64,000 bases of DNA from an uncultured Candidatus Saccharibacteria bacterium (GTDB taxonomy: Bacteria; Patescibacteriota; Saccharimonadia; Saccharimonadales; Saccharimonadaceae). Location: assembly GCA_947302975.1 (NCBI GenBank), contig CAMYXA010000003.1, positions 1 through 64,000 on the forward strand, written 5' to 3'. The notes below the pieces were generated by a model, which ran no database searches, had not been told where the DNA came from, and was given only the letters and a program-made list of their open reading frames with translations. The position numbers were made by a program, and so were the translations under genes. The number at the start of each line of letters is the position of its first letter. Positions within the stretch are counted from its first letter, which is position 1. Of the stretch, positions 27,060 through 62,072 are shown in pieces.

Positions 27060-27136
27060 GGTTCCGTCGTCTAGTGGTCTAGGACGTCTGGTTCTCATCC
27101 AGAAAATCGCGGGTTCGACTCCCGCCGGAATCACCA
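27060..27136 (+). tRNA. tRNA-Glu (CTC), CCA encoded
   Basis: GGTTCCG...CTGG TTCTCAT CCAG...GCGGGTTCGACTCCCGC CGGAATCACCA. Confidence 0.92.
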
Positions 27137-27142
27137 AGAAAT

Positions 27143-27174
27143 AAAATAAGACCCTTTGGGTCTTCTTTTATTTC
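27143..27174 (+). terminator. Hairpin downstream of tRNA-Glu
   Basis: AAGACCC ttt GGGTCTT CTTTT. Confidence 0.6.
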
Positions 27175-27193
27175 TTGATTACTGCGCGAAGAT

Positions 27194-27257
27194 GAACCCG
27201 CGAAGCGGGTTCGCCCGCCGAAGGCGGATAGCGAGCTTTAGCGAGCGTCCTCCCGCC
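27194..27257 (+). repeat. T-arm-echo hairpin array downstream of tRNA-Glu
   Basis: GAACCCGC gaa GCGGGTTCG CCCGCC gaa GGCGG ... CTCCCGCC; reuses tRNA-Glu T-arm sequence in inverted and direct orientation. Confidence 0.65.
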
Positions 27258-27308
27258 AAAAACTTTCAAGTTAAAAAGGGCCGAACTTTGTTCGACCCAT
27301 GGTGGTAC

Positions 27309-55737: not shown

Positions 55738-55812
55738 TCCCCTGTAGCTCAATGGTGGAGCAAGAAGCTGTTAACTTCGAGGTTGCCAGTTCGAGTCTGG
55801 CCGGGGGAGCCA
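55738..55812 (+). tRNA. tRNA-Asn (GTT), CCA encoded
   Basis: TCCCCTGTAGCTCAATGGTGGAGCAAGAAG CTGTTAA CTTCGAGGTTGCCAGTTCGAGTCTGGCCGGGGGAGCCA; upstream TATAAT at 55722. Confidence 0.92.
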
Positions 55813-55867
55813 CAGAATAAAGAAATAGACCCGCAGGGTCTAGTTTTTTATTCTGGTGCTGTTTCGA

Positions 55868-56008
55868 GGCCAGACGAGAACTGGCTTTAGCCAGTTCGTC
55901 TCACAAGGAGACGAGCGAATATCCAAAACATGTTTTGGATATCCCGAGACGACGCAGCGAGAGAACGCATCTCCGCAGGAGATGTGTGACGTCTGGCCGG
56001 GGGAGCCA
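55868..56008 (+). repeat. tRNA-Asn-derived hairpin array with duplicated tRNA 3' end
   Basis: GTCTGGCCGGGGGAGCCA at 55795-55812 and again at 55991-56008; inverted T-arm GGCCAGACGAGAACTGGC at 55868-55885; four nested hairpins. Confidence 0.8.
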
Positions 56009-56076
56009 TATTGGACGAGAGTCCAATTTTTGTTTGCATCAAAGCCCCTCACATTGAACAAAACCCCAATCTGTGA

Positions 56077-57427: not shown

Positions 57428-58630
57428 TTAAACAAAGAAATCCTTGCCGCCGATACTGTTTACGCCGCCCTCAGAATTAGCGCCCTTAAGGCCAAGCTGA
57501 TTTCCGATCTGCCACAGTGCCGCAAGATACTTCACTTCATCGCCGACAGTAGTCATTTCATCAAGCTTGACAAAGCCCAGTACGAAGCGGACCATGTTCT
57601 GTTCCTGTCTCGCATAAAGCGAGTTGATACTAATACCCAGCCGCTTCAGCATCATCTCGCGATTTACTGCTCCAACCAGTGCCGGAAGACCAGGAGTATC
57701 GAGAATCTTACTAACCTGACCCGCATCATAGCAAAGCGCAGTTGCAACCTGAATGCCAAAACCTCTAAACACATGATTAATAGCGTCCTTGAGAGCATCG
57801 GATGCGTCGCGAACCGAATCTGTAGGCGGAAGCTGTGCTGCCGCGTTCATGATCGGAGCGCCGCTGGACATACCGGCAAACATCGCCATTATCATGCTCG
57901 GATTAGAGTAACTTGCGCTAAGAGCGTTATACCAAGCATCAAGTGCCTCGAAAGCCTCACGGATTGCAGGCCACATCTCATCACGCGTCCTCTTCAGGAA
58001 CTGATCTTTTCTCTTCTGCGTAGCAAAAGAACCGTCCAGTCCTTCGATGGCTGCAAAGATTTCGCTGTAGTCATGCCGAGTAAGCAGCTTCCTGATCTTA
58101 AAGTATTCCCCGCTAACCGGCTCATCATTTGCTTCAGCAAACTTTTCCATCTCAACGCTGAGAAGTTCCGGGACTTTAAACAATCCACACTTGTCTGCAA
58201 ATGCTGCGCGAATTGCACTGACATAAGAAGCTTCGCCCACCTTCAGGACGCCGCCAGACTTCAATGAAGAAAGCCATGCGACATCATCCATCGGTGCAGG
58301 AAGAATCGAGACCGGATCAATACTGATATTGATATCAGTCTTCGGCTTATCGTCTGCTGCGCTTGTTGCCTCTGCCTTAAGGCTTGCAAGAAGCTTTCTG
58401 GCCTGAACTTTCTTGATGCCGATCCCTACGAGATCATCTTCGGTGAGTACCGCAAGATCATCGACGCATTTAACGCCAAGCTTCTGAGCTCCATACCAGG
58501 CTTCTAAGCTACCGCCATACTCTTTCAGCTTCTCAAGAACAGGGTCGACACATTTCGTAGCCTCTTCCGTTACCTCAGTTACTTCAGTTACTTCAACTTC
58601 GGGATTCGTGATTTTTGTTTCATCTGACAT
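57428..58630 (-). CDS. SAM-like (sterile alpha motif) domain protein, otherwise uncharacterised
   Basis: LEAWYGAQKLGVKCVDDLAVLTEDDLVGIGIKKVQARKLLASL; ATG 58630 after SD aaaggtgg. Confidence 0.6.
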   Translation of the reverse strand: MSDETKITNPEVEVTEVTEVTEEATKCVDPVLEKLKEYGGSLEAWYGAQKLGVKCVDDLAVLTEDDLVGIGIKKVQARKLLASLKAEATSAADDKPKTDINISIDPVSILPAPMDDVAWLSSLKSGGVLKVGEASYVSAIRAAFADKCGLFKVPELLSVEMEKFAEANDEPVSGEYFKIRKLLTRHDYSEIFAAIEGLDGSFATQKRKDQFLKRTRDEMWPAIREAFEALDAWYNALSASYSNPSMIMAMFAGMSSGAPIMNAAAQLPPTDSVRDASDALKDAINHVFRGFGIQVATALCYDAGQVSKILDTPGLPALVGAVNREMMLKRLGISINSLYARQEQNMVRFVLGFVKLDEMTTVGDEVKYLAALWQIGNQLGLKGANSEGGVNSIGGKDFFV

Positions 58631-58646
58631 AATAGTTTCCACCTTT

Positions 58647-59972
58647 CTATTTGAAAATTTTATCCCGCTCCGTTGCGCCAATCGACAACAAGCGAAGCGG
58701 AATATCAACGTGTTCCGACAGGACATCCGCGCAATAATCGAAGATATATCCACTCGATTTATTACTTAATCCTGGTTCTAGCTCATAGCTAGTAAGTATT
58801 GCTTCGACACTGTTTAACAAATCTGCACTAATTTTTACATCGCGTGACAACAAGGTGCCTTCATAACGATAATCCGTGCAGAAATCCCAGCGCCCCTGCA
58901 GCAATATTTGGTCAAACCAACTTAACGCTAAACCATCAAAGGCCCTCGCGCCGCCACAGGTTTTAATCGCATAGTAGAGCAAACGCACATCAAACGCGCC
59001 CACTCTCACTTCACCTTGCCAACGATTTGTATCTTTATGACTGCCAGGAAGCATCTTTTCACGTAATTCATCATCACGCGATGGCAATGGTCCGGCACCA
59101 TGTCTGATTTCGTAGGCTCGGTGCACGCCAAGGTTTACAATCTTTCCATCAAATCCGGCATTTCTATACATCTTCTCCGAAAACTCAGGAAGAGTTCTTA
59201 GCGCGCTCACATGTGGCTTCAGGGCGGATTCCGCATCCGTAAGCACACCATGGGAACGTTCACTAATTAAGATACCGTCTTGTTTCAAGATGTCTTCAAG
59301 TAGTAAAAACTGAAGCTTGGCACCAACGTCATAGAACTCATCGACGATGTTAAAAAGAACTTCATCATCAAGCAGTAACGTCATGTTCTTACAGAATATT
59401 TCCAAATCCCCATCTGAGAGTGAGTCACAAGGAAAATCCGTAAATAATGCAGTTACCTTTTCTCGTAACCTATTTAGTTTTCTTAGAACAACTTCCTTAT
59501 CCGTTAGCTCTCTGGCAAAAAGCGCCGAATCCGGGTCTTCCATAAATTCCCGATAAGCTTTGCCTACGCCGGTTCCAATTGTGCCATGCTGATGTTTACC
59601 CAGCGACAGCTCGTAGTTCTGCGACCAAACCTGATGGTATGGCGTTGCGCAGAGACAATTTGGATGACAGTAAAGCATCGCCCACGGATTATAGATGCCA
59701 AGATGTTGCAAAGCGCTCGCTTCGTTTTTGAGGCCATGCGGAGTAATTACGATACGTTCCGATAAGTAAGTCGGTACGCCTTCGAATGTTCCACAACCCC
59801 ACTGAGCAAAGTTAAAACTTTCACCATTTGAGCTTCTGACACCGTGGCTGCCTTGGGCGCCACCCTCCTTGACAATGTAGTTTGGTTTAAACCGACATGC
59901 TAATGCATGCACGAAGCCACCCTTTCCACCATCGCCAGGGCCGAGATCTGTGACTGAGTAAACTTTTTGCAT
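58647..59972 (-). CDS. Divergent adenylosuccinate synthetase (PurA)-like protein
   Basis: LGPGDGGKGG (cf. GDEGKGK), GGAQGSHGV (cf. GGNNAGHTV), GTIGTGVGKAYREF (cf. IGPAY), GVHRAYEIRHGAGPLPS (cf. KAYTTRVGAGPFPT); SD aaggaggt. Confidence 0.75.
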   Translation of the reverse strand: MQKVYSVTDLGPGDGGKGGFVHALACRFKPNYIVKEGGAQGSHGVRSSNGESFNFAQWGCGTFEGVPTYLSERIVITPHGLKNEASALQHLGIYNPWAMLYCHPNCLCATPYHQVWSQNYELSLGKHQHGTIGTGVGKAYREFMEDPDSALFARELTDKEVVLRKLNRLREKVTALFTDFPCDSLSDGDLEIFCKNMTLLLDDEVLFNIVDEFYDVGAKLQFLLLEDILKQDGILISERSHGVLTDAESALKPHVSALRTLPEFSEKMYRNAGFDGKIVNLGVHRAYEIRHGAGPLPSRDDELREKMLPGSHKDTNRWQGEVRVGAFDVRLLYYAIKTCGGARAFDGLALSWFDQILLQGRWDFCTDYRYEGTLLSRDVKISADLLNSVEAILTSYELEPGLSNKSSGYIFDYCADVLSEHVDIPLRLLSIGATERDKIFK

Positions 59973-59983
59973 AAGTTACCTCC

Positions 59984-61126
59984 TTACAACCATCCGCTAC
60001 TTTCCTCTTCAGGAATAGTCGAATCTGTCGATTCTTCTGCATAGCTACATGGCTGCAAATCGGTCTTCTTCTCGAAAATGTCTCCGAGTCTTGGAATCTT
60101 ATACTTTGATGCTTTTTCCAAGCGACGCTGTACACCGTAAGGAATTTCTCGTAAGTCAGACAAACAATAATCTCTGTAGGAATCGCTTACCTGATGATCT
60201 TTAAGCCAGTTCCCGAGATCAAACGGCTCAAGCGTGCCTTCGGTCAGGCCGATAATTGCAGCTTCAATTTCCGGCAAACGCGAAGTGTTCGGGATGCGAA
60301 CGACATGGCCTTTGCCAAACCATTCACTCCAGTAATCACGACCACGCGAATCGCCCTCAACTACAAGCGCAAATGCATGCTTGGTTTCCTTGAGCTTTTC
60401 CGCCACGTCCGTCATATCCGGTATCTCGTCACCTTTATAGCCATTCTTATGGAGCTTCTCGAGGAAGTCATCCCCAAAGATACGTTCTAAGGTATCCTCC
60501 GAGATTCTGGCGTGCATTGTCGCATCGGTAATCAGGAAGAAATACCCCTTCAGACCAATGCGATTCGTATACGCTGCAGTGTAGTAAGCGGAAGCGAACA
60601 TTGCATACTGAGGATCTTCCAGAATATCACCGCCTTTACCTTCTGGATGCATCTTTGTCAGATAATCGACGATCTTTTCAGCCGTCATCTCAAACTGCGG
60701 CCGGTTCAGCACATATTTGTCCTCTACATCGCCAAAAATTCCGCACGCAATTTGAACATCAAAACCGGGTAGCATCTCGGATGCCAACTGATAGGTATCA
60801 GGAAGAACGGCAATCGCTTTATCAACGTTATCGCCCATACTTCCAGTCGAATCAAGAGACGATTCAATATCCATCGGACAGCCAACGCTTACGCGCCATT
60901 TCTTACCCTCAGCGGGATCAAACCGAATCAGGCTTTTCCTGATTGTGTCAATCGCCGGATCTACGGCGGAATCAAGTCTGCCAGTTTCACGCACTTTTTG
61001 GCGTGCCTTTGCCGTAACGTCGGTTTTCACCTTGCTGCTACGCCTTTCCTCGTCGGAGCTATAAGAAACTCCACGCGCTGACATACTAGATTCATATTCG
61101 TAACTACTAAATACTTGGTGACCCAT
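59984..61126 (-). CDS. vWA-domain protein
   Basis: MIDAS ESSLDSTGSMGDNVD; HPEGKGGDILEDPQYAMFASAYYT; start 61126 after aaggaggg. Confidence 0.8.
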   Translation of the reverse strand: MGHQVFSSYEYESSMSARGVSYSSDEERRSSKVKTDVTAKARQKVRETGRLDSAVDPAIDTIRKSLIRFDPAEGKKWRVSVGCPMDIESSLDSTGSMGDNVDKAIAVLPDTYQLASEMLPGFDVQIACGIFGDVEDKYVLNRPQFEMTAEKIVDYLTKMHPEGKGGDILEDPQYAMFASAYYTAAYTNRIGLKGYFFLITDATMHARISEDTLERIFGDDFLEKLHKNGYKGDEIPDMTDVAEKLKETKHAFALVVEGDSRGRDYWSEWFGKGHVVRIPNTSRLPEIEAAIIGLTEGTLEPFDLGNWLKDHQVSDSYRDYCLSDLREIPYGVQRRLEKASKYKIPRLGDIFEKKTDLQPCSYAEESTDSTIPEEESSGWL

Positions 61127-61139
61127 GCTTTTCCCTCCT

Positions 61140-62072
61140 TTATGGGTAAAAATCTTCATCGGGTTCTAGGCTATGCCAGATTTTCTCCGATGATTTGATG
61201 TAGGTAAACGGATGGTAACTCCGTCCCCACACTGAATCAAGTGTTTCGTAAAGCATTCTGTGTGCCTCTTCCGCGTCAAGCTCGGGGTATTCAGCAAGAA
61301 AATTGTAGACCTTAAGTTGTTTCTTCTCGTTTTCAAAACGATCAGGATCATACTCTAAGCCCCCTTCTTCACTGTACCAGTTCGTCCAACACGTAAAGCA
61401 GGCTACAGATTCAGCGAGCGATGCAACATTATCCCCACAAGTACGAGGGTTTATTGATGCATCGATCCAGTTAAGATAGACCAAACGATGTTCCTTGGGC
61501 TCAAAAACAATGTAGTCGCGATGGGCACAAAATGACGCCCTGCACTGCTCAATAAATGTTTGAAGTTTCAGCATACGTCCGAGCATCCAAGCGGATGTCC
61601 TGGCATCTACACGATAGTCATCAAACATTTTGGCAAGCGGCACAAAGTCCTTCACATCCGCATCACGAATCGACAAAAGATTCATCTGCCTGCCACCCTG
61701 ATCGGGTCCAACCAGAAAACTCTCTTCCAGTACCGGGAAAAGCCAGTCATAATGAAGCTCATAGTCATTGCCAAGCTCTTTATTCTTTCGTTCAAAATCG
61801 TCCGACTGTTCGGCGAGAAAACGTAAGAAAGTAGCTTCGTTCTGAATGAGATTATTATCAAGCTTATCAAACGGGACTTTTAGTAGCTTAATCTTTCCGT
61901 CCGTGGCGGATATAACACGATAGATTCTAATCTTTCGAGCTTCGGATGAGAACAGTAAATCGGACTTGTTGAAAATACATATTTCTTTGCCATCCCTGTC
62001 TTTTAGAATCAAAAAATCACCTTCTTTCCAATCTAGATTTTTAAGGAACAAAATACCTATTTTTTCCGTCAA
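61140..62072 (-). CDS. Protein-kinase-fold-like (possible pseudokinase) protein
   Basis: YRVISATDGKIKLLKVPF...NEATFLRFL; AWMLGRMLKLQTFIEQC..CAHRDYIVFEPKEHRLVYLNWIDA. Start is TTG at 62072 and uncertain. Confidence 0.5.
   Translation of the reverse strand: MTEKIGILFLKNLDWKEGDFLILKDRDGKEICIFNKSDLLFSSEARKIRIYRVISATDGKIKLLKVPFDKLDNNLIQNEATFLRFLAEQSDDFERKNKELGNDYELHYDWLFPVLEESFLVGPDQGGRQMNLLSIRDADVKDFVPLAKMFDDYRVDARTSAWMLGRMLKLQTFIEQCRASFCAHRDYIVFEPKEHRLVYLNWIDASINPRTCGDNVASLAESVACFTCWTNWYSEEGGLEYDPDRFENEKKQLKVYNFLAEYPELDAEEAHRMLYETLDSVWGRSYHPFTYIKSSEKIWHSLEPDEDFYP

Follow-up and report, generated by a model that had tools for sequence, protein, structure and literature searches.

A hairpin unit behind tRNA-Asn in a Saccharibacterium belongs to a family whose arms match the adjacent tRNA gene

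The unit downstream of tRNA-Asn

The window, a stretch of 64,000 nucleotides of DNA, comes from a gut or rumen Saccharibacterium and carries a non-coding insert of 196 bases behind its tRNA-Asn gene (Table 1). The last 18 nucleotides of this gene, GTCTGGCCGGGGGAGCCA, recur exactly at the downstream end of the insert. With up to three mismatches allowed, the 18-mer has two matches in the window against 0.03 expected. Between the two copies the first-pass annotation had described an inverted T-arm, TTTA, a direct GCCAGTTCG, several hairpins and a closing stem. All of these motifs were found in place, as was the duplicated 18-mer, and the stems are present in the minimum-energy fold. The inverted T-arm departs from that of the tRNA at two positions (0.01 such matches expected), and the GTTCG ahead of the core is near-invariant across the family to which the unit belongs. 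Features that had gone unmentioned are the two terminators that frame the unit, one after each CCA, and a truncated unit at tRNA-Glu (27060-27260). A terminator of the same style and position as the first is present in most units of the family.

Table 1. Features of the unit behind tRNA-Asn and of the truncated unit behind tRNA-Glu
Feature	Position	Strand	Basis or remark
tRNA-Asn (GTT), intact; putative target gene	55738-55812	+	ARAGORN; Rfam tRNA 60.8 bits
18-nt tail, copy 1: T-loop end, T-stem 3' strand, acceptor 3' strand, CCA	55795-55812	+	
Entire unit, read as inserted (196 bp), ending with the second tail copy	55813-56008	+	terminator positions in relatives L026, L027
Terminator hairpin belonging to the unit, CAGAATAAAG...TTTATTCTG, with T-run; adjoins the first CCA	55813-55855	+	
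Inverted copy of tRNA-Asn T-arm; 5' strands of P1 (closing stem) and P2	55868-55885	+	2 mismatches
Closing stem P1, GGCCAGACG/CGTCTGGCC	55868-55876/55990-55998		minimum-energy fold
TTTA	55886-55889		
Direct GCCAGTTCG: T-stem 5' strand and GTTCG, 3' strand of P2	55890-55898	+	
Conserved core (model R1)	55894-55965	+	74.3 bits, E 9.4e-20, this copy itself being included in the model
GTCTC/GAGAC hairpin	55898-55902/55908-55912		minimum-energy fold
Conserved internal loop, 5' side, GGAGACGAG; family consensus TAGGAGnCGAG	55907-55915	+	column counts
Palindrome ATATCCAAAACATGTTTTGGATAT, P3b hairpin	55919-55942	+	minimum-energy fold; 12/12 pairs covary in family
Conserved internal loop, 3' side, CGAGACGACG	55945-55954	+	column counts
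Variable hairpin P4, ACGCATCTCC-GCA-GGAGATGTGT	55965-55987	+	minimum-energy fold
CATCTCC-GCA-GGAGATG hairpin	55968-55984		minimum-energy fold
P1 3' strand with second copy of acceptor 3' strand and CCA (second 18-mer 55991-56008)	55990-56008	+	
Terminator ATTGGACGAGAGTCCAAT, taken as the original tRNA-Asn terminator	56010-56027	+	near-identical one directly after CCA in L026, L027; after second tail in L076
Truncated unit behind tRNA-Glu: terminator, inverted T-arm with GCGGGTTCG, reduced core, CTCCCGCC tail remnant	27137-27257	+	

The array folds strongly. As RNA, positions 55813-56040 give z = -8.5 against dinucleotide shuffles; as DNA, the top strand of positions 55868-56008 reaches z = -7.7 and the bottom strand -6.0. 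The copy in the window is a diverged member of its family: the internal loop and P3b are kept, and P3 competes with a local hairpin, GTCTC-ACAAG-GAGAC. At the tRNA-Glu (CTC) gene (27060-27136) the terminator of the truncated unit precedes GAACCCGCGAAGCGGGTTCG, a shortened core and the CTCCCGCC remnant.

The tRNA-Asn locus was compared with those of relatives, as the annotation had proposed. In G008 and G011 (loci L026 and L027), which carry another tRNA-Asn allele, have no infB match found upstream and are thus not clean orthologous sites, a terminator resembling ATTGGACGAGAGTCCAAT adjoins the CCA of tRNA-Asn; in the window and in G169 (L076) this type of terminator stands after the second tail instead. 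Because of this displacement, the simplest reading is that 196 bp were inserted between tRNA-Asn and its terminator, with duplication of the tail. At most tRNA-Asn loci of the genus infB is conserved on the upstream side, and the DNA on the downstream side differs greatly. Shorter units of about 80 bp lie behind tRNA-Asn in other genomes, some of them in tandem, each ending in the same tail. This second type of unit (L010 1558-1735, L014, L004, L016, L011) runs from a T-run through the CAGACTCGGACC hairpin GGTGCGAGTCTGG to the tail, and is tandem in some genomes.

Further downstream of tRNA-Asn in the window lies a minus-strand cluster (57428-61159), possibly an island, whose products are a SAM-domain-like protein, a divergent paralogue of adenylosuccinate synthetase and an unassigned protein of 391 aa. 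That the array is an att-like site marking the adjacent island, one of three readings offered at first, does not hold: no further copy of the 18-mer was found anywhere in the genome with up to two mismatches allowed, neither at the far end of the island nor elsewhere, and the same kind of unit lies behind 16 tRNA isotypes. An att-like role of the unit itself, bounding small cassettes, is possible.

A family of units at tRNA genes

The middle of the array recurs in other genomes, mostly behind a different tRNA, as detected by BLAST independently of any model (best E 7e-11). When a covariance model of the 73-nt core (R1, built from eight cores) was run on 174 genomes of the genus, 145 had matches, and a single genome could hold as many as 23 copies. 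Among 393 genomes drawn from the order, 103 are positive, and all of the positives listed belong to the window's own family. Records that contain the exact pattern and bear a name come mainly from Candidatus Saccharibacteria of rumen and gut; matches to it in Streptomyces, haloarchaea and others are taken as chance in GC-rich DNA. Spread by phages was rejected, as just 2 exact pattern matches were found among 2.9 million viral contigs. Weaker R1 matches come from three distant families of the phylum. One of these, in two genomes, has the same A-rich CTTG hairpin with GAGCGA flanks, behind genes and not tRNAs; in another, L366 resembles a full unit. When the unit was compared with Rfam, tRNA alone reached the gathering score and no other curated family did. 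A full-text search of the openly accessible journal literature returned no description of such elements, and the family is apparently undescribed.

Among 149 distinct units, 127 follow a tRNA gene of the same strand at a distance of up to 400 bp (mostly 61-84 nt from its end), and 16 isotypes are represented. Several of the others have lost the tRNA at a contig end or are fused to it through the core. In four loci (L233, L243, L251, L262) the core is joined straight to the CCA of a tRNA-Ala-like gene, and the P3 stem uses the 3' end of the tRNA (CACCA). In L053, L249, L263, L218, L122, L066 and L284 the terminator ahead of the unit gives way to a conserved palindrome some 115 nt long (GAAAGGCGCCATCTCGGCG...CGCCTTTC, with variants). 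Core copies also occur away from tRNA genes, after the tuf stop codon in L165 and upstream of rpsL in L196 (gene names by inspection of the reading frame), and within long inverted repeats in L025 and L184. In L067, L070 and L232, units without an adjacent tRNA are bordered by a similar stretch, TTGTAGATGGTTAAAGC.TGCTTAATTT.GCCC.GCCA or a variant of it.

The core is common to the isotypes, whereas the tail copy and the inverted T-arm match the adjacent tRNA. The 16-nt tail copy is identical to the end of the neighbouring tRNA in 60 of 111 units and never exceeds 14 of 16 identities with tRNAs of other isotypes. In most loci that have a tail copy, the two copies lie 170-199 bp apart. The match extends below the level of the isotype: when the inverted arm was compared with its own tRNA allele and with other alleles of the same isotype, its own was the better match in 349 comparisons and the worse in 49, with 97 ties. 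The cores, on the other hand, appear to track isotype only loosely. A core tree, which rests on 68 columns and is weakly resolved with many open forks, requires at least 57 isotype changes, where the minimum is 13 and 76 are expected by shuffling. Two loci of RGIG5013 illustrate the point. L124 (tRNA-Gln) and L175 (tRNA-Arg) have identical cores at the 66 bases compared and nearly the same P4, but their arms differ, each matching its own tRNA. The pattern could also arise if gene conversion had carried the body from one older unit to another, and it does not prove transposition.

Folding, proposed movement and the search for an enzyme

The stems of the core are upheld by compensatory change. 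The 98 distinct full cores give 1758 paired cells, and 1687 of these are Watson-Crick. Across 115 distinct alignment rows, 97.8% of cells are paired and changes on both sides occur at 18 of 18 pairs, with 464 double-change cells, a number reached in none of 500 shuffles; these counts are inflated by the relatedness of the sequences and by fitting to the model. A hairpin occupies the place of P4 in 118 of 149 units. Judged from sequence, the internal loop, TAGGAGnCGAG opposite CGAGnCGACGCC, might consist of two GAGnCGA strands that run antiparallel and form tandem G.A pairs.

RNA stems tolerate G.U. Mismatches in the core stems are nevertheless almost evenly divided between G.T (27) and A.C (23) among the 1758 cells, whereas tRNA acceptor stems at these loci show 62 G.T and a single A.C. 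Since G.T is about as frequent as A.C in the core, the pattern favours folding at the level of DNA rather than RNA. It has no clear strand preference. Terminator-like hairpins (13 G.T, 12 A.C) are uninformative as a G.U control because they were picked by Watson-Crick pairing.

These counts bear on the proposal of a structured RNA, made by read-through from the tRNA gene and serving as a tRNA-like regulator, a decoy or a T-arm antisense, in which selection for base pairing would keep the match. The strong fold with its acceptor-CCA tail, the 18 nt antisense to the T-arm and the covariation are all in keeping with such an RNA. We nonetheless regard it as improbable, given the terminator between tRNA and unit, mismatches unlike those of tRNA stems and the lack of an Rfam match. 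The tRNA-tail RNA of the first-pass annotation is likewise not favoured, as the arms are Watson-Crick without the G.U excess of tRNA stems and Rfam gives no match. The third of its readings, a tRNA-derived mobile element, comes nearest, backed by the relatives, which support a tail-duplicating insertion, and by the large family of elements.

The array is thus probably a member of a non-autonomous type of DNA-hairpin element, similar to REPs or MITEs, whose targets are the T-loop or the 3' end of tRNA genes. This reading draws directly on the anatomy of the unit, its family, the tRNA association, the tail duplication, the match to each tRNA and covariation that shows no G.U bias. Insertion at either place would leave a complete tRNA upstream, a duplicate 3' end downstream and the element between them; the tail being duplicated on insertion, the tRNA would survive. 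The conserved body consists of hairpin P3/P3b with the GAGnCGA internal loop, followed by P4, and the tRNA-matched arms of the inverted T-arm, the direct half T-arm and the tail. Movement, past or present, would proceed as folded or cruciform DNA with a recombinase or transposase acting in trans, and the arms would be copies of target sequence, made during insertion or later. The body may enter the T-loop at GTTCG^A, because the core directly follows the GGTTCG of a tRNA-Gln-like gene in L023 and L239. One possibility, which is conjectural, is that the inverted T-arm is copied from the palindromic target during repair.

An origin with no mobility at all would run as follows. Replication slippage and strand switching at the T-arm palindrome would yield inverted and direct copies of the tRNA end, and gene conversion would then homogenise the units. 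T-arms are indeed palindromic, exact or near-exact tandem copies exist (L054, L143, L226), and bodies are slightly more alike within genomes than between them (0.70 vs 0.63). Slippage does not, however, account for a 73-nt core that recurs behind unrelated tRNAs across many genomes, or for its presence at sites other than tRNA genes, such as that after tuf or those in long inverted repeats, and we consider this origin very improbable.

Under the hairpin-element reading the units would behave as cassettes, either in tandem or with genes between the tail copies, and both arrangements are found in related loci. In L142 (tRNA-Val), tail copies bound genes for a GNAT acetyltransferase and an isochorismatase-like protein, followed by a unit. 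They bound a 323-aa protein in L077 (tRNA-Tyr) and a 142-aa protein in L024 (tRNA-Gln), each without a Pfam match. L086 (tRNA-Arg) holds SbcC/SbcD-like genes (by inspection) and others, with tails at +2436 and +6708. Such gene-bearing loci are few, and most units are without a gene. The gene-bearing loci make the units look like cassette ends, in the manner of attC sites.

The cassettes could also be taken to mean that the units are remnants of integrative elements. Tyrosine integrases would have put small cassettes at tRNA genes, whose 3' ends are the classic target, and each unit would be an attL/attR left after loss of the cargo, its hairpins being integrase binding sites. Tyrosine recombinases are present in 58 of 60 genomes of the genus. 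We find this account rather unlikely. Phage-type att sites are specific for one target, whereas here a single body with matching arms lies behind 16 isotypes. None of 20 integrase loci read in relatives holds a unit, and only L335 among them has a tail-like copy, with 2 mismatches; local phage-type integrases were rejected on this ground. Moreover, G028 has 7 copies and no tyrosine recombinase detected in it. In the genome of the window, which is 91% complete, the search for an integrase that the annotation had suggested turned up a single tyrosine recombinase (C1:99052-99987), and this is Xer-like (its best score is as Xer). The 196 bp of the unit carry no integrase gene, or any other gene.

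Other enzymes fared no better. Y1 transposase (Y1_Tnp) was detected in 2 of 60 genomes of the genus, in 2 of 18 high-copy and distant genomes and not in the window's own genome, and its near absence led us to reject RAYT as mobiliser. Cas1 is present in 7 of 60 genus genomes and was not found in that of the window, which disposed of a Cas1 or casposon origin. Reverse transcriptase, present in 25 of 40 genus genomes, was not found in the window's genome and is therefore not required now, so that it was dropped as present mobiliser. As to the integron integrase IntI, the score of this recombinase (TIGR02249, 131 bits) is far below the cut-off of 265. For none of the known families tested does the element show the characteristic enzyme.

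Likeness to known systems

REP, REPIN and BIME elements are moved by RAYT (Y1, TnpA-REP) transposases (PMC3116915, PMC3733652). Like them, the unit is a short, non-coding imperfect palindrome that can fold as a single strand, has no gene of its own and is present in many intergenic copies (at most 23 per genome, with all stems covarying); a GTAG-like motif stands at the hairpin foot of the unit as well. Unlike them, it is tied to tRNA genes, has tRNA-matched arms and a long tail duplication, and resides in genomes nearly devoid of Y1 transposase. CGTC-tagged REPs are palindromic repeats without a dedicated transposase (PMC3733652). The unit likewise has no transposase assigned to it and, as a likeness of motif, the complementary strand of its core reads GGCGTCG at the foot, but it is much longer, tRNA-bound and made of several hairpins.

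With integron cassettes and their attC sites the unit has in common variable sequence with conserved folding, tandem arrays and, at a few loci, what may be small palindrome-ended gene cassettes at a fixed anchor. Its anchor, however, is a tRNA gene that its arms copy, and the window's genome yielded no IntI. Tycheposons and other tRNA-anchored integrative elements insert at tRNA 3' ends, keep the tRNA whole and leave a tail copy; they carry a recombinase and large cargo. The unit likewise sits at a tRNA 3' end behind an intact gene, and a duplicate of that end stands at both ends of the insertion. It differs in its length of 196 bp, its lack of a gene and the recurrence of one body behind 16 isotypes. 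Long target duplications at tRNA 3' ends, as made by casposons or Cas1-type integration, would yield tails that match any target. Cas1 is rare in the genus, though, and integration of this type does not account for the inverted arms.

By analogy, then, the element is most like a REP or MITE (non-coding, palindromic, multi-copy, no enzyme of its own), with a target common to integrative elements and a folded-site cassette logic common to integrons. We group it with the non-autonomous palindromic elements, among which its target-matched arms may warrant a separate class. More tentatively, the units might represent a new class of mobile DNA, one that takes a copy of its target into its own sequence: a T-loop hairpin whose arms are rewritten at each insertion, leaving any tRNA gene open to one body and unharmed, and which perhaps also bounds gene cassettes, in which case tRNA genes would anchor an integron-like system in Saccharibacteria.

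Should it move in the way proposed, such an element would have an answer to the target problem, in that it carries or acquires sequence matching any tRNA gene that it enters, and tRNA genes would be variable insertion sites in these ultra-small bacteria with reduced genomes. The unit would then offer a defined, testable substrate of about 140 bp for finding the enzyme. Meanwhile, a duplicated tRNA tail in this group should not be mistaken for the boundary of an island.

A related dispersed palindrome, GCGAAGTGAGCGAGC..AAAAACTTGTTTTT..GAGCGAACGAGC, is present in distant members of the phylum (L356-L365, from G575 and G534), where it lies behind genes, often directly after a T-run.
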